This document shows, one piece after another, positions 136 to 12,214 of a stretch of DNA of 12,214 bases (position 1 is its first letter; each line of letters begins with the position of its first letter). The stretch lies in NCBI GenBank assembly GCA_027596945.1, contig JADGJH010001062.1, positions 1 to 12,214 on the forward strand, in the 5' to 3' direction. Source of the stretch: Physocladia obscura. Lineage: Eukaryota; Chytridiomycota; Chytridiomycetes; Chytridiales; Chytriomycetaceae. A model generated the notes under the pieces. That model was not told the DNA's origin and did not search any database. It saw nothing but the letters and a program-made list of their open reading frames with translations. The position numbers and the translations under genes are program-made.

Positions 136-1577
136 ATGGCACAACCACCAAACAAGCACAATCGAGTTTCGGATAGCGAATATTATGTCCGACTGGGCAT
201 ATTTGTAGTTTTTAACCTATGGATTGCAATGGGCGTGGTGTTCTGCGGGCTACCAGCTATGCCATTGAGACTTGTATCTGCGCAACTGGGTGACAGCAAA
301 ACTGGTGTATTTGTACACTCGTTCTACCGCGCGTGGATTCGACCTATACAGGCCGCGTATGTGTCGGCGCTGCTTGTCCTAACTGCACTGTCTATGAACG
401 GCTCTGCGCTTGTTGTGTCGGGCGATTGGGATCAAATCGCACCGTCGGCTAAACAGATTGCCGTTTCAAATCATCAAATCTATCCAGACTGGTTTTTTCT
501 CTTTATATTTGCTCGATTCAGGTGTGTTGTGTGGACTGAAAAATTCATATTTTTTGTCTTTTGTTTTCTTTTTGTTTTAAACTCGTCAAAAAACAGAAAC
601 TGCCATGCAGATATCAAAGTCATCCTTATCAATATTCTCTCGCGTTTACCGCTCTTTGGTCAAGGCATGTGGTTGTTCGAGTTTCTTTTCATGAAACAAC
701 GCTTCGACAAGGATAGGCAAAATATGGCTAGAAACCTCACCACTGCGAAAAATGACCCACATCCCTTGTGGCTACTGATTTTCCCTGAAGGAACTCTCAA
801 TACACCAGGAAATATCGATAAATCGAGAGCTTATGCTAAAAAGGTGCATTTCAGATCATGAAATAAGAACGAAATACTAATCTTTTGTTGAACACATTTA
901 AAAAAAAAAAAAAAAATATTAAAACTGGAAAACTAGATGAATATCAACTCGCACCCGTAAGAAAAAAATTTTATGCTGAAACACTTTTTTTTTTTGAATT
1001 TTGAATTTTTTTTTGAATTTTTTTTTGCAGGAACCACTGCATCCTTCCAAAATCCACTGGTTTATTCTTCTGCCTTGAAACACTTACGCCTGTATCTACG
1101 CCGTTCCTATTCGACTTAACCGTCGGATATTCTGGTCTCAATGGCGTCGAAATTCCATACGATCGATACCTAATCGATCGTGTCTTTTTTGCCAAAGACT
1201 TTCCGCGCGAAATCCATATTCACGTGAAACGATATCAGACCCGCAATTTACCCGGATTTACGGACGCCGAAGAACGACAGCAGCAAAGTAGTGGCAGTGA
1301 TGAAAAAGAAATTGAACGGAAGACGCGGTTTGATGAATGGTTGCGTGGAATCTGGTTTGAAAAAGACGAACGAATGGCACGCTTTTACAAGACAGGTTCG
1401 ATGCTACAGCGTGATAAAGAAAAAGAATTGACAAGCCGGGTTGTAAGAATTCCACTAGTACCTTCGACTTTGGATTGGGTTTCGGTTATCGTTTTGTTTG
1501 CTCTTGGACTCTTTTTGCCTGTCGTTTACTGGAACATTTTAAAATTGGCTTTTGCGGCTCTTTTGACTTTCATTTAA
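136..1577 (+). CDS. Lysophospholipid acyltransferase, CST26/LCLAT1-like (PlsC family), 4 exons
   Basis: Predicted to acylate a lysophospholipid (lysocardiolipin, lysophosphatidylinositol or lysophosphatidate) using acyl-CoA, in a membrane such as the ER. Model: exons 136-521, 597-843, 937-956 and 1031-1577, giving 399 aa; all introns are GT-AG and phases agree. Seen: N-terminal hydrophobic segments, the catalytic NHxxxxD motif as NHQIYPD (residues 112-118), the FPEGT glycerophosphate-binding motif (191-195), LPKSTG (223-228), a family-typical stretch with FDEWLRGIWFEKD, and a C-terminal hydrophobic helix. Start: the first in-frame ATG (136); the frame is open back to a GTG at 115. Intron 1 (522-596) removes a hydrophobic stretch absent from the family. 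Intron 2 (844-936) carries a perfect TACTAAT branch site near 875. Exon 3 is only 20 nt and is required to restore frame. The family is clear; the exact acceptor substrate is not. Confidence 0.88.
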
Positions 1578-1771: not shown

Positions 1772-3630
1772 TCAGAAATGTTCGGTTCCAAAGTAAAACT
1801 TGGTTCCAGTCTCCGACGCATTTGTTTGTGTATTGCAGGCTTTGTGTAAGCCATCACCCAAAGGTTTTGGCCCACAGAAAAACACTCCGACGTCTGTTTT
1901 CGGATGCACTAAACCAAACTCCTTGAAAATAAGATCAAAATTCGGCCGACCAAAGAAAGTGCGTGATCTCAGTCCCGTAACCAAATCATTACTGGCTTCT
2001 CGATCCAATAACATCATTCGCTTGGCATCATTTGCAGGAATCTTGCCAGTGAAATAAGTTCTAATTTCTAGAAAGCCTTCAGCGATATCCTCTTCAATTG
2101 TTAACAGTAAGTCCTGGAACCATTCGAAAGCCTGTGATTAAGTTAAATACAGTAAAAACTTTCAAGAAGACAAAAAATTTTAAAGCAGAACTTACCTCTT
2201 TGTCTCTGCAAACCCAAATGAAATACACCTTCTTCAACCTATTTAGATTGTTCTCCTGTTTTGAACGATACCAAATCGTCTTCAAAATGGATGCAAATGG
2301 TGTGACACCGATCCCACCACCAACAAGCACACCAACTTCATAATCAAAAACATCCTCAGAGATGGTACCGTAAGGTCCATCCACCAATAAATACGGCAAG
2401 GATGTTGTCTGCGACTCCAACTCGACGTTTTTTCCTCCCTTTTCGTCAAATCGACATCCCAACCGTGTTGCAAACTCTTTGGTCCAATCACCAACCGCAT
2501 TGATATGAACGCTAATGAATTTCTCGTCAGGAGACGACGTCAATGTGAATGGGTGCCATTGATATGGTGAAATCTCTGGACAGCAAATAGAAATATATTG
2601 GCCTGCTTTTGGTTTGCAACTGGGTTTCATAATCTGAACTTCAACGACACGGGATGGATGTTGAACTGCCTTTGAAATGTATGTTCGAGAGCGAGCACGA
2701 ATCTCACGCCCAATTCGTTCGGCAATGTATAACACTGCACCACCAATCCAGAACTTCCAGAATAAAGGTCCACCACGGCAAATGTCACCAGTATCGCCCT
2801 ACAATCAGAATGAAAACGAATGTAAATCGAAATTAGATTTTTGGAGATGTAAAGTATGAATAAATTTCTGATATTCATTTTGCACAAGCCCTGAGACACC
2901 TGAGAGAATCATGTGGACAACACGGATTTGGCGAGAAAAGAATTTACCTTAATCAGACAGAACGCACCATGCATGAGAATTCCGCCAAAAAATACAATAA
3001 ACAGGTGATGTAAGAACCAAAAAATCTCAAATTGCTTTCTCCGTGTTGCTTCCATGGCACTCGTTCCCATCAGAAACAGGACCACACTGATGATTTGCCC
3101 CGTGAGACCCGGTCCACTCAAAAGGTTGAGGTACTCCGCCGTCACAACATCTGCCGTGAGAAAAAGCTCAACAGCGTAAAAGTTGTAGAAATGCGCCAAT
3201 GAGTGTACAACAGACCAGAAAATAATGCCGTAGGCAATTAAAATGTGCATGTCGATATTCTCATCGAACGGAATCAGACGGCCAAGGAACGTAGCTCGCA
3301 ATAGAGAGAGAATATTCTTGCAAACAGTGAGGAGAATTAAGGCGCAATTCAAGTTGATGATATTTGCCGCAGCACGGGCAATCATCAGGCCGGGACCCAA
3401 AACAAGTCTGAAAGTAGCAAGGACAGGGGTAGTCGATAGTACATAGTAACTCTGGATAAAGTAACCAACTTGGGCTGCGATCCACACACCAATCACAATG
3501 TGTTTACGAGCTGTCAGAGAAGTTAACCACGAATCCGCGTATTTGGAAACACGGTTATGCGCTTACCCGCATCCGTTGCATAGCTTCGGAGTGGATTCTT
3601 TCGTGTCGAACTGCTGCCAAACAATCCCAT
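1772..3630 (-). CDS. nox: Superoxide-generating NADPH oxidase (gp91phox/Nox family), 4 exons
   Basis: Transfers electrons from cytosolic NADPH through FAD and two membrane hemes to oxygen, making superoxide; in fungi this is linked to differentiation and polarised growth. Model on the minus strand: exons 3630-3567, 3510-2948, 2798-2196 and 2131-1772, giving 529 aa, with introns of 56, 149 and 64 nt, all GT-AG. Heme-ligand histidines are H110/H124 (14 apart) and H189/H202 (13 apart, in an HHLF...HG context), as in gp91phox. The FAD motif HPFTLTS is at 291-297. NADPH-site motifs are DGPYG (349-353), GGGIG (369-373) and CGPKPL (from 496), and the protein ends in an aromatic F. No EF-hand extension is present, so it fits the fungal NoxA/NoxB class rather than NoxC. 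The first ATG precedes a basic, serine-rich 21-residue N-terminus; that short first exon is the least certain part. All key residues are intact. Confidence 0.93.
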
Positions 3631-5156: not shown

Positions 5157-6777
5157 TTAAGCGCACGTCTTAATATGATCCTCCATTTGAATTTTGTTGC
5201 AATTTTTACAGCCAGCACAGAAACCAAAGGCGTGGCATTTTGTGCATATCCTCCGGCTGTGCTGCGGTGCCATGTTTTAGCACAGCATCAATGAAAAACA
5301 GTTTTTGCCGTCTTGGAATTTTCCTTGTCAATTTTTGCTTGCTTCCTAGCTTGACTTCGTTCTGTAGATGCTATCTCTTGTTGTGTTTGGCATCGACAGC
5401 TTTCTGTCGGCTTAGGTGAAGTTCATTGAAACTATAAATCTTATCTAATTTTACGCATTCCTCTGGCTTTGCATTAACTTTCTTGACCTGTGAGTGTGAA
5501 GCTGACAATTCAAATACACTGCTTTTGCTGCGGCGTCAGTTGGTCCAATTTCGCTTTTTTGAGCGTTTACGTTGTCCATTGCATTTCGAACAATGATTTT
5601 CTTATCAAATGGAAAAATTCCTGTACACTCAAACGACAACTGAATAATATGCGACAAAATTGACTCGCGAGCTTCAATAGCAATTGAGATAAGTTCTTCA
5701 CCCACTTTTGCCAGTGCTTTTGTGGTAAAACTGCTTTTTTCTTGATATAATCTACAGGTCTTAAGACCGACAAGTCCAATGGCTGCAGAAATGGGTTGTG
5801 TTTGGTGGCAAAAAGAACCCAGCAATTTGTGTCTCAAAGCACTGTGTGAGAATGTCAACCGTTCTGTGCACACCAAGATTATCATACAAAAGAACTGGGT
5901 GAGTCCATTGTGTTGTTCTGACCAAACTGACTTCAAATCAACCAAAATAGCATGCCATTGCACCTCTGTCACATATCCTGTTTTACTAAACGTGAAGAAT
6001 GTGGTAGTGATGTTTTCATGTCGCAAACGAGTCATTTTGCTTGTAATTGGATGTTCGCAAATTTGACAGGTAAGACAAAAACATCCATTATTTGCTCCCC
6101 ACTTGCAGTAACAAATGGAATGAAGCTGGCGTATTGTCCTCAATCACCTTGAATCTCGTTTGGACGTGAAATATTGACACTAACAAGGGCCTTTGGGCCT
6201 TTGATTGTGAGTTATCATTCTGTAATTTTTGCATTTCGTCAACGTTCATTATATTTTTCCAACTGTAGCTATTATCGTTCATCCAGAGCTCGAAATCTTC
6301 TACCCACGTTTGCACCAACTCAAGAGTAAGGTGGCTTGTCCGAGCCACAGTTATTGTCTTAGTGTGTTTGAAAGTGACTGTGTTTTTGTGCCGCTTAATA
6401 AACTTGTTGAACCATGACTCTGCTGACCATCCAACTTCCCCATGAACTTGTGTATTATATCTTGAGACTAAATGAATAAAGTCTATGCGTCCCATTGGGT
6501 GGTGGCACAAGGATCTCACCTTGGCAAAGGCAGCAAAGATTTCTTCTTCTTCATCAGTGAACTTTTGGTTGCCATTGGTTCTTCCTGGGTGGTTTTTCAT
6601 CCGTCTTTACACTGATCTGCCAGCTTCTTTTGATATATTCATTGATTCACTGAGATTTTTGGCAGCCTTGTTGACTGACATGTAATTGTTAACAGATGAA
6701 TTGATTTCCTTAAAAACGGCGCGGTTTCGCTCCGATTGTTTCAGGCTCTTGTGGATAGATCTGCAAGTTGGTGTCAT
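5157..6777 (-). pseudogene. Decayed pogo-like DDE transposase
   Basis: A minus-strand relic in all three frames. From the 5' side: an N-terminal HTH-like stretch (MSVNKAAKNLSESM), an in-frame TAA at 6604-6606, then a CENP-B-type DNA-binding region (WFNKFIKRHK). The first catalytic Asp is in NVDEMQ. After a frameshift near 6125 comes VTASGEQIMDVFVLPVKFAN, then another shift near 6030. The second Asp lies in LLYDNLGVHR (another shift near 5900), followed by LPPNTTHF and, after a further shift near 5785, LQPLD with the third Asp. The order and the PPNTTxxLQPLD signature are typical of the pogo/Fot group. The C-terminal part carries GIFPFDKK, then a lysine-rich, frame-shifted stretch, and ends with a cysteine-rich tail whose stop is at 5157-5159. 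At least five frameshifts or stops mean no active enzyme. Terminal repeats and target duplication were not found. Confidence 0.85.
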
Positions 6778-8311: not shown

Positions 8312-8383
8312 ATGAGTTTTCACTTTCTGACTTTACGAAAAAAATGTTTGAAACAAAAGCTCAGCGTGTGGGTCCGACAATGA
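8312..8383 (+). promoter_or_regulatory. Possible overlapping upstream ORF at the start of the APSES gene
   Basis: A 23-codon out-of-frame ORF begins at ATG 8312 and ends in a TGA at 8381-8383 that overlaps the in-frame ATG at 8380 (ATGA). If the message begins upstream, this arrangement would favour reinitiation at 8380 over initiation at 8344. It is only relevant if this region is leader rather than an exon. Confidence 0.15.
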
Positions 8384-10563
8384 AACTAGTGCTATCTGCA
8401 ACTCATGCGTTCAATAATATCGAAGATTCAAACGAAGCTGCTGCTGCTGCGGAACCTAAAATTATCATTCAACAGCCATCGTTAAACACACTCGCTTCTG
8501 AATCAGAACAGTTCTCGTCAAGCTCTAACGCGTCAAATTCTTGTAGTGATTATATAATCCGTCAGTCTTCACTTTCGCAGTCGCAATTTCAAAAAATTAA
8601 GCGCAATTATTCAAATAACAGCTTGAGTGAATATACAGGTATATTTAAGTCGATTATTTTTTGTTGTATTCAAGTCGATGCTACAAAGGGCGCGTTTCTG
8701 AAGCCGGAAATAGCAGTACGCTGATTGAAACTATTTCTGCATCAATGGAAGTTGAAACGGTATTGACTGCAACGGAACAGTCTTTCAATTCTTTGGCTGA
8801 CAACAGACCATACGAAATTTTCGAAAATTTTCAAACAAATCCGCGCATAGTACAGCTTATTTATAACGGAATAAATGTGACCAGACGACCAGACTCCCCG
8901 TTTTCCGTAAACGTTAGCCATCTTTTGCATTTGGCGGGTGTCGAAAAAAATAGGGCAAGCATATTTCAGGAAAAATTCATTAAGTTGAAGTGGAATCACG
9001 AGATGATGGTTTCTGAAAATCAGCTTTTGAATGGAATCTGGTTGGTTTTGCAAGTTAATGATTTTTTAATAGCTTTTATATCTTTTTTATTCATTTCCGC
9101 ATCTATTGCAACTAGGGTGTCCGCACAAAATGCGCTTACGCTTGCAAGAGAATATAATATCGAAAGCTTGATTCAAAAGCTTATTAACCATGGTGGTTCG
9201 TCAAGCCATCAGCAGGAAACGATTCAAAGCGTGCCTGTCTCTGATTTGGACGAGTCAAAAACTAAGTCTCTCCTGCAAAAAAAATCTCGTTTGAATACAA
9301 AAACGAAAGATCATAATGCCAGTATTTTTCTTGCGGGACCATTTCTCTTGAAACTCGTTTTTAAAGGAATTGCCGTTGGAAAACGCACAAACTCGGCACT
9401 CAACTTTAATCTGTCCAATATGTTGACTCTTGCGGGAGTCAGCACAACCAAGAAGAATGAGATTTTACTTAAAAAATGCAAACGTCCAGAACATGATGAC
9501 TTTATTTTCGAAAAAGTTAGAGGCGGAACTGCAAGTGGGACTTGGTATACTTTTTCATTATGTTTGAGCTGAAAATAAAAATTCATTTGATTAGGGTTTC
9601 AGCTAGTGACGGGTTGAGATATGCAAGAATTTTTGGCGTTGAAGAATTGATGACAAAGTTTATCGACTTTGATTCAAGTGATTTGTGCCCACTTGATGTC
9701 GCTGTGGATTTTGTGAAAAATCCGGGATTACAGTGGTTGATTCCACATTCGAACAGAAAATCAAATTTAAAAACGAAGGACACCGACGTTTTGATGAATG
9801 AAGATTGCAGTGAAAATACTTTTGGGATGCTGTTTGAACATGTTATTCAAGAAAATGAAAGTAAGAATTTATTTCCAAAAATTGTCTGCGAATGGCGATA
9901 TCTAAAAAACCGATTAGAAGAAATTAGGGAAAAAATCATAAATGAAACATTTATGGATGAAAACGAAACTATTTTTGTATACCCTCAATTCACTTTGGCT
10001 TTTTTTAAAGGATTCTCAACTCTATTTATGGAGCGACTAATTAGACTTGAGATTAACAATTTTGAAGCACATTGTATTTCCCGACAGCAAGTTTTTTGTT
10101 TTGTTTCTACTCTCAGAAATCATGGAGGACTTGAAACAGAACAGGTGTAAAAATATAAACAACAAAGAGAAACTAAAAATTAAATTTTTTGATCGCAGAA
10201 ATGTCCAACACCATTTCAATTTGAAACGTGTCAAACAGCAAGAAATTTTATAGCAGCCAGCCGCGCTTTGGATGCAAACACGTATCCAATTTTCAAGTTT
10301 CCTGATTCTTCCACTGTTTACTATTCCCCGAAAATGGGTAAAAAAAATAATCAAATCTGTCTGATTTGCAATTAACATTTTCTAGCGTGGTACACCTTAA
10401 CAAGTTGCTCTTCTTTTTTAAACGCGCTTGAAAACCCACCAGTAAGTAGCAATTTTAGAATTGCAAACCAACCAAATTAATTTTGTCATTGGTGTAATAG
10501 GAATTTCCGCCAACTGTTCTAAAAGATTATGTTATGGATTGTTCACAAGAATTCAATGAATAG
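8344..10563 (+). CDS. Putative transcription regulator with two tandem APSES/KilA-N-type DNA-binding domains, 7 exons
   Basis: Probably a nuclear DNA-binding protein. Model: exons 8344-8638, 8704-9040, 9116-9544, 9595-10144, 10199-10337, 10386-10441 and 10501-10563, 622 aa; all six introns are GT-AG with consistent phase. Residues 1-145 are low-complexity, with a run of five Ala and many Ser, Asn and Gln. Domain 1 is about 147-237: VNVSHLLHLAGVEKNRASIF, then GIW (W211), then SAQNALTLAREYNIESLI. Domain 2 is about 288-380: FNLSNMLTLAGVSTTKKNEI, then EKVRGGTASGTW (W354), then SDGLRYARIFGVEELM. Both follow the APSES pattern of a hydrophobic strand, an 'AG..K' helix, a G.W turn and a final 'A..y.v..L' helix. 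Basic linkers (LNTKTKD, NLKTKD) follow each domain. Residues from about 400 onward, including KCPTPFQFETCQ, are unrecognised. Start chosen: first in-frame ATG (8344); ATG 8380 or an upstream exon ending at the TGTAG at 8271 are alternatives. Confidence 0.75.
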
Positions 10564-10626: not shown

Positions 10627-12214
10627 TCACCAAGTCCCTTGTTGTCCATAGCCAGTACCGCCCTGGCTAAATCCGTTCCAAGTTCCACCATACGCAGACT
10701 GCTGAGTGGTCACGGTTGATGCGGCTGGAGTCGATCCAGCGATTGTTTTGGCTATCTTGAAAACACCGCCTTCCTCAGTCGCTGTTCTCTTTTTCCCTAA
10801 AATATTTCCTGCGCCATCAGCCTCGGCCAGAGCAGCAAGTGTAGGCATCTTGTACGCCGAATTCAACTCCCTAACAAGATTATTATAGAAAACCAGGCCA
10901 CTGTCATGCTCAAGAAGAAAATCGGAATAACGCTGACCCAAAGTAAGTTTATCATATTCCGTAAATGCTGGACTTGACTTAACAGTATCCCAGACTGCTT
11001 GAGCATTTTCTACAGAGTTTGATGTAGCGGGAAGATTCAATTCAAACAAAAAGTATTGGAGGAGCAGATATTTTGAGTCTGGAAAATTTGAAACAAATTC
11101 GGTATAAATAGCGCGGGCATCTTCAATAGAGCCCCGATGCTGGTAAACCAATTTTGCTTTCACGGATATTAAAAACGCGCGAGTTTTTTCGTCTTCAAAA
11201 GTGGCTGTGACGGATGTCAAAAACTCTTCGGCCTGTTCCACTCCGAAGTTACGCCGCACAAATTGTACATATTTAAACAATGTTTCAATATGACCAGGAA
11301 CTGTTATGGAATTTTGAATAAACAATAAAAAGAAATCATGGAACAGCAAACCATTTTCCATCTGCTTGGTGTAGATTTCCGCGGCTTCCGTAACCCGCCC
11401 TTGTTCTTCTTCAAATGCCGCAAATTCAAGCCTTAATTCGGTCCGTCCGTTTACCAAAAATTGAGTTGCAGCACGATAGTACGCGTTCTTAGCTCCATCA
11501 TAATCGCCTCTTGCAATTAAGCATCTTGCATATCTCAACCAGAATTCTTCGTAAAGCGCACAAGCAACCATGCATCTCTCATAGAGAACGTACAATGAAG
11601 AAATATCGGCCGTACCGCTATCTACGGCAGATTCTTGAAAATCTAGATACTTACGCCAGTTTGCTAGTTGCGCTTCGTCAATAGGTTTGATGTGGAAATA
11701 CGGGCGCTTGATTTCAGATTCAAAAGCCCAACATTTATGAACAAGATCTTGAGTTTTTAGGTAAATTTCGCTCTTAATGCCATGTATTTTTTGACGCAAT
11801 TCTTGCTCAATATCCTGTCAGTCAATAAAACAGCAGCAAGCACTAAGAAAAACAAAATAAAAATAAAAATAAAAAGGAACCCAAACCATTTTTGACGGAT
11901 CTGCAGTTTTTATCTCAGATGATAACCGATCAATTTCACTCTGATCGATAAGTTCGTTGACAGGCCTCGTGACAGAAACTTGGGAATATCTGGATGGAAC
12001 ATCAATCGAAACTCAAAATGTTAATCAAACTAACTTTTCAAAGTAGCGAGCATATTGATGAAGAGGAATTCGAATCACACGCTCAAGAATAGCCAAAACG
12101 TTTTGACTAGACTGCTGCTTGTTTTCTTCAAACTCAATGTACTTATCCCAGAAAGTATGTGACAGAAAATCACTTCCTACTCCCTGAGAAGCACGCTCAA
12201 AGAGACTGAAGATA
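10627..12214 (-). CDS. PRP39: Pre-mRNA-processing factor 39 (HAT-repeat protein), 5' end outside the window
   Basis: A U1 snRNP-associated splicing factor that helps commit the 5' splice site; nuclear. Three exons are seen on the minus strand: >12214-12035 (partial), 11989-11887 and 11814-10627, with introns of 45 and 72 nt (GTTAGT...CCAG and GTTTGG...ACAG), phases 2 and 0; about 490 C-terminal residues. Evidence: repeated HAT-type helix pairs with W/Y/F-x-x-Y/F-x-x-F-E spacing, such as FWDKYIEFEENKQQ, NWRKYLDFQESAVD, LYEEFWLRYARCLIARGDYD and RLEFAAFEEEQGRVTEAAEI. The block KRPYFHIKPIDEAQLANW is a strong Prp39/PRPF39 signature, as is the following ALYEEFW. After the last repeat comes a basic stretch (GKKRTA) and a short Gly/Gln/Trp tail ending GYGQQGTW. 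The gene is convergent with the APSES gene. Prp42-like paralogues are the main alternative, but the conserved block favours Prp39. Confidence 0.9.

Follow-up and report, generated by a model that had tools for sequence, protein, structure and literature searches.

The locus and its gene models

We analysed a window of 12,214 nt, which is one entire contig (JADGJH010001062.1) of the chytrid Physocladia obscura (family Chytriomycetaceae), and concentrated on its gene HK100_000325. The NCBI protein of this gene, hereafter P0001, has 509 aa and is named 'HTH APSES-type domain-containing' in UniRef. Two APSES-type domains, D1 (92 residues) and D2 (94 residues), lie in tandem in this protein, separated by a linker of 49 residues and flanked by acidic N- and C-terminal regions. 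The first-pass annotation, made from the sequence, had placed two copies of about 90 residues, some 50 residues apart, at 8845-9675, which agrees well with the fitted domains (8841-9670).

The exons recovered by fitting the NCBI protein to the window reproduce P0001 (Table 1). Our own gene model encodes 593 aa in exons 8344-8638, 8689-9040, 9116-9544 and 9595-10144, plus a doubtful tail. Both models are the same from 8689 through D2 and differ in the N- and C-terminal exons, and neither gave the 622 aa proposed at first. The first intron is weak, with odd borders (GTCGCA...CAAG), and an alternative start at an ATG near 8745, read by eye, is possible; the first intron and the C-terminus of the protein are thus the uncertain parts of the model. 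The C-terminal region of P0001 matched no Pfam or NCBIfam family, found only itself in a search of the P. obscura genome, and was not meaningfully similar to the C-terminus of Swi6 in a BLASTP comparison. Because exon 9116-9544 runs uninterrupted from the last part of D1 through the linker into D2, we set aside the possibility of two separate genes and consider that both domains belong to a single polypeptide.

Table 1. Positions of HK100_000325, its parts and the neighbouring genes in the window
Feature	Position	Strand	Basis or remark
Gene HK100_000325	8344..10150	+	NCBI protein P0001 fitted to window
NCBI exons recovered	8344-8579, 8675-9040, 9116-9544, 9595-9860, 9918-10150	+	Reproduce P0001
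D1 (APSES domain 1), first part, to first two bases of Trp codon	8841..9040	+	
Phase-2 intron in D1, within Trp codon of G.W turn (TG^G), GTTGGT...CTAG	9041..9115	+	Splicing gives P0001
D1, last part (W-VSAQNALTLAREYNIESLIQKLINH)	9116..9191	+	
Linker, 49 residues, basic (isoelectric point, pI, 9.3, residues 229-272)	9192..9338	+	Exon also holds end of D1 and start of D2
D2 (APSES domain 2), first part; its wing lacks two residues relative to Mbp1-type domains	9339..9544	+	
Phase-2 intron in D2, within Trp codon of G.W turn (TG^G), GTATAC...TTAG	9545..9594	+	
D2, last part (W-VSASDGLRYARIFGVEELMTKFIDF)	9595..9670	+	
C-terminal region, acidic (pI 4.8, residues 371-509)	9671..10150	+	Intron 9861-9917 in NCBI model
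Protein with Acyltransf_C	1017-1577	+	Pfam
Oxidoreductase, FAD_binding_8 and NAD_binding_6 (ferric reductase type)	2094-2798	-	Pfam
PRP39-type splicing factor	10627-11817	-	Pfam

Both domains are related to the APSES family

To evaluate the two domains we built a hidden Markov model (HMM) from seven APSES domains, namely those of yeast Mbp1 and PCG2 together with five from the P. obscura genome itself (contigs C624, C4 and C724 and the two Mbp1-type domains); D1, D2 and Swi6 were excluded. The HMM matched residues 138-225 and 282-369 of P0001 as two distinct stretches, with independent E-values of 1.2e-9 for D1 and 2.8e-7 for D2 (Z set to 100,000), while the best match among 2000 shuffles of P0001 had an E-value of 23. 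Aligned with each other, D1 and D2 scored 117 with BLOSUM62, a value reached by none of 1000 shuffles, and a chance similarity was therefore rejected. Both copies show the features first described for them, an AG.. helix, a G.W turn and a final helix, except that the final helix of D2 (ARIFGVEEL) deviates slightly from the A..Y.V..L pattern.

Pfam was less informative. The KilA-N search proposed by the first-pass annotation gave no match to the 593-aa model, D1 or D2 (E ≤ 10) or to the 509-aa protein (E ≤ 1), and the window was not among the loci listed in a PF04383 search of the P. obscura genome. For scale, the Mbp1-type frame on C733 (L003) reached an E-value of 5.9e-5, just under the cut-off, the first exon of the C624 gene reached 0.034, and P. 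obscura Swi6, the same as D1 and D2, had no match. Pfam also reported no ankyrin model for either the 593-aa or the 509-aa model, in agreement with the initial impression. Matches below the cut-offs to Phage_HK97_TLTM (E 5.9e-5 on the 593-aa model, 8e-4 on P0001), Utp13 (E 0.03) and DUF6669 (E 0.15) were not used; the first was taken as driven by a Ser/Ala-rich composition.

Structural comparisons pointed to the same family. A single-sequence search of the PDB returned Mbp1 at an E-value of 0.17 only, and a profile of D1, D2 and Swi6 retrieved seven distinct sequences at E ≤ 1, all of them Mbp1/PCG2 or Bqt4 (best E 5.9e-5). The predicted structure of D2 gave the APSES winged-helix fold, with Mbp1, PCG2 and Bqt4 occupying Foldseek ranks 1-9. 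Structure prediction bore out the first-pass annotation for D2; D1 was modelled only in a full-length AlphaFold2 job that we set aside (mean predicted local distance difference test score 34.7). Taken together, D1 and D2 are both APSES-related and lie within one polypeptide as far as the exon structure tells.

Relatives of D1 and D2 in the P. obscura genome

When the window protein was searched against its own genome (21.76 Mb in 1222 contigs), matches beyond the window itself were limited to two Swi6 genes on C554 and C854 (NCBI 'transcriptional regulator swi6'), with weak E-values of 0.012 and 0.048. These genes contain ankyrin repeats, which pass the Pfam cut-off in Swi6, with the copy P0003 just below it, and also in the frame of C624, an SBF-type gene combining an APSES domain with ankyrin repeats. 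Two Mbp1-type domains (C733 and C1131) and further APSES domains on C4 and C724 were also found, together with a fragment on C235 (L016) that is 80% identical to the Mbp1-type domain, includes two in-frame TAG codons and may be a decayed copy. Both Swi6 (proteins 81% identical) and the Mbp1-type gene occur as pairs; the two-domain gene was found once. The Mbp1-type domains of C733 (L003, L012) and C1131 (L002) have a complete QxGxGxxQ wing preceded by a Gly/Arg-rich stretch. Downstream of the C733 domain (L012) no ankyrin-like frame of at least 90 aa was seen by eye, a region where no Pfam scan was made, and the label of Mbp1 ortholog was accordingly dropped for both loci in favour of 'Mbp1-type'.

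Pairwise comparisons ordered these relatives. D1 scored 121 with Swi6, 117 with D2 and 89 with C624, and D2 scored 117 with D1, 90 with C624, 89 with C4 and 84 with Swi6; for Swi6 the first partner was C624 (123), followed by D1 (121). For all 27 pairwise comparisons, none of 500 shuffles scored as high as the real pair, and BLASTP against Swi6, run as a single comparison, gave E-values of 9e-12 for D1 and 6e-9 for D2. Thus, within this genome, the nearest relative of D1 is Swi6 and that of D2 is D1.

Intron position offered a line of evidence independent of residue similarity. In seven of the nine domain copies examined (the C235 fragment was left out), the Trp codon of the G.W turn is interrupted by an intron, as TG^G; these are D1, D2, both Swi6, both Mbp1-type domains and the SBF-type C624. 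In C4 an intron lies close by, directly ahead of the Gly, and C724 lacks an intron at this place. This common site supports placing D1 and D2 in the SBF/MBF/Swi6 line. Capture of a viral KilA-N domain was rejected, as the intron position is common with fungal genes and viral contigs gave 48 pattern matches with no confirmed relative. In addition, one inserted residue ahead of the conserved Asn sets D1, D2 and both Swi6 rows apart from the other eight rows of the alignment.

Phylogenetic trees were less clear. In the tree of 11 rows none of the seven inner branches was settled. The grouping of D1, D2 and Swi6 received support of 86/96 with eight rows and 76/82 with nine, which is not decisive. 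Trees joining D1 to D2, as a tandem duplication would, could not be distinguished from trees joining D1 to Swi6, and approximately unbiased (AU) tests rejected none of the arrangements tried (p 0.07 to 0.59).

Residues that contact DNA in PCG2

According to PMC4333399, DNA contacts in the PCG2-DNA structure include H53, K56, K62, R65, T91 and the QxGxGxxQ wing, whose glutamines Q82 and Q89 are key and both read CGCG. We compared nine positions (H53, K56, K62, R65, T91, Q82, Q89, G84 and G86), with the published PCG2 numbers aligned to the printed chain at the offset giving a match for Q82 and Q89; S23, beyond the fragment, and T51, which misfits the offset, were left out. Yeast Mbp1 and the P. 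obscura Mbp1-type domains were identical to PCG2 at all nine positions, C624 at seven and C4 at six, and D1, D2, Swi6 and C724 at two each; Bqt4 matched at none. The D2 count was the same under two placements of its wing gap, which is arbitrary. A wing with both glutamines, present in the Mbp1-type domain, is absent in D1 and D2, whose glutamine columns hold V and N, and R and S, respectively. The SBF-type C624 (L020) has Leu in place of Gln82 and retains Gln89. Hence, D1 and D2 have lost most of the CGCG-reading residues.

A proposed two-headed regulator

The window protein resembles the two P. obscura Swi6 proteins (P0002, P0003) in its APSES-like domains, which in Swi6 stand as one at the N-terminus, and in the TG^G intron, the one-residue insertion and the lack of wing glutamines. 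It differs from them in having two such domains instead of one followed by ankyrin repeats and a long C-terminal part, since neither the repeats nor a Swi6-type C-terminus was recognised. With Mbp1, Swi4 and PCG2 it shares the predicted winged-helix fold of D2 and, in the P. obscura members, the TG^G intron. These proteins, in contrast, have one DNA-reading domain with the QxGxGxxQ wing, which D1 and D2 lack, and in Mbp1 and Swi4 also central ankyrin repeats, none of which was recognised in the window protein.

On these grounds our leading reading, which we hold at a probability of roughly one half, is a Swi6-like regulator with two heads that would work chiefly by contacting other proteins and not by reading DNA. 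D1 and D2 would derive from the Swi6-type, non-DNA-reading branch through internal duplication or fusion, and the protein would be a nuclear co-regulator that docks partners mainly through both domains, after the model of the APSES-fold domain of Bqt4 and of the role of Swi6 in MBF/SBF. Any contact with DNA would be weak or altered at most, and would more likely be made by D2, because D2 is more basic and retains part of the G-G wing. The trees back the link to Swi6 only weakly, and therefore a Swi6-type origin is the leading reading and not a result. Both domains are basic (pI 9.6 for D1, 9.8 for D2), so that binding of DNA in some other mode is conceivable.

Such binding is the core of a second reading, in which D1 and D2 would each contact DNA in a non-Mbp1 way and one polypeptide would, as the first-pass interpretation had it, grip two half-sites or a composite site without dimerising. 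We regard it as possible but less likely, and our results do not support a grip on two half-sites. Each domain keeps only two of the nine contact positions and neither has the wing glutamines; D1 lies closest to Swi6, and the yeast counterparts Swi6 and Cdc10 have no DNA-binding activity according to PMC4333399, which describes Swi6 as unable to bind DNA and as having a shorter wing, no 20-loop and another charge pattern. Charge, for its part, does not separate readers from non-readers, because in P. obscura the Swi6 domain, with a pI of 10.7, is as basic as one would expect of a reader, and the pI of the Mbp1-type domain is only 5.9. A related and rather doubtful version is a self-contained APSES transcription factor whose monomer would read a composite, non-CGCG operator, one head being Swi6-like and the other keeping residual DNA-reading features, with the intramolecular pair replacing the Swi6-Mbp1 heterodimer.

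That the chain is a fast-evolving, decaying relic, or that its N- or C-terminal exons are wrongly annotated, would fit the long branches in the tree, the lack of relatives found beyond P. obscura, the odd borders of the first intron and the single copy of a gene whose Swi6 and Mbp1-type relatives are paired. We consider it unlikely, however, given that both domains are intact in frame with their introns, contain no stop and retain the family positions. Least probable of all is an anchor at the nuclear envelope or telomere similar to fission yeast Bqt4, which shares the APSES fold and whose PDB entries, by their titles, include structures with Rap1, LEM2 and Sad1. Bqt4 has a single domain as far as those entries show, and its sequence similarity is low (68 with D1, 40 with D2); the D1-D2 score and the scores within the genome are far above that of D2 with Bqt4.

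A protein that combines two such domains and has no recognisable ankyrin repeats would be an example of the family joining its domains in a single chain. It also offers a compact way of testing whether Swi6-type domains serve for docking or can read DNA.

Distribution and previous descriptions

Searching with residues 140-410 of P0001 returned, at E ≤ 1, one of 3168 candidate proteins, namely itself. The Swi6 protein found two of 7994 candidates at E ≤ 0.001, only candidates sharing most words being scored, and its N-terminal domain two of 4795 at E ≤ 10, all of them from P. obscura. Swi6 is widespread in fungi; as these searches nevertheless return only P. obscura, the lack of a second species says little about the uniqueness of the two-domain protein.

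Literature searches yielded no description of a protein with two APSES or two KilA-N domains, and in the passages retrieved 'two APSES' referred to two proteins or genes, or to APSE phages, never to two domains per protein. Mbp1, Swi4, Res1 and Res2 are described in PMC4333399 as having a single DNA-binding domain each. According to PMC4862756, fungi gained the SBF/APSES family early, the family was recruited to control the G1/S step, and chytrids retain an early, hybrid form of this network.

Surroundings of the gene

Besides the neighbouring genes listed in Table 1, the window includes on its reverse strand, at 5451-6606, the frames of an apparent repeated element. None of them had a Pfam family above its cut-off. 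The frame of 172 aa at 6088-6606 had 111 matches in the genome at E ≤ 0.001 (136 candidates), many of them with stops, and the element is perhaps a transposase.
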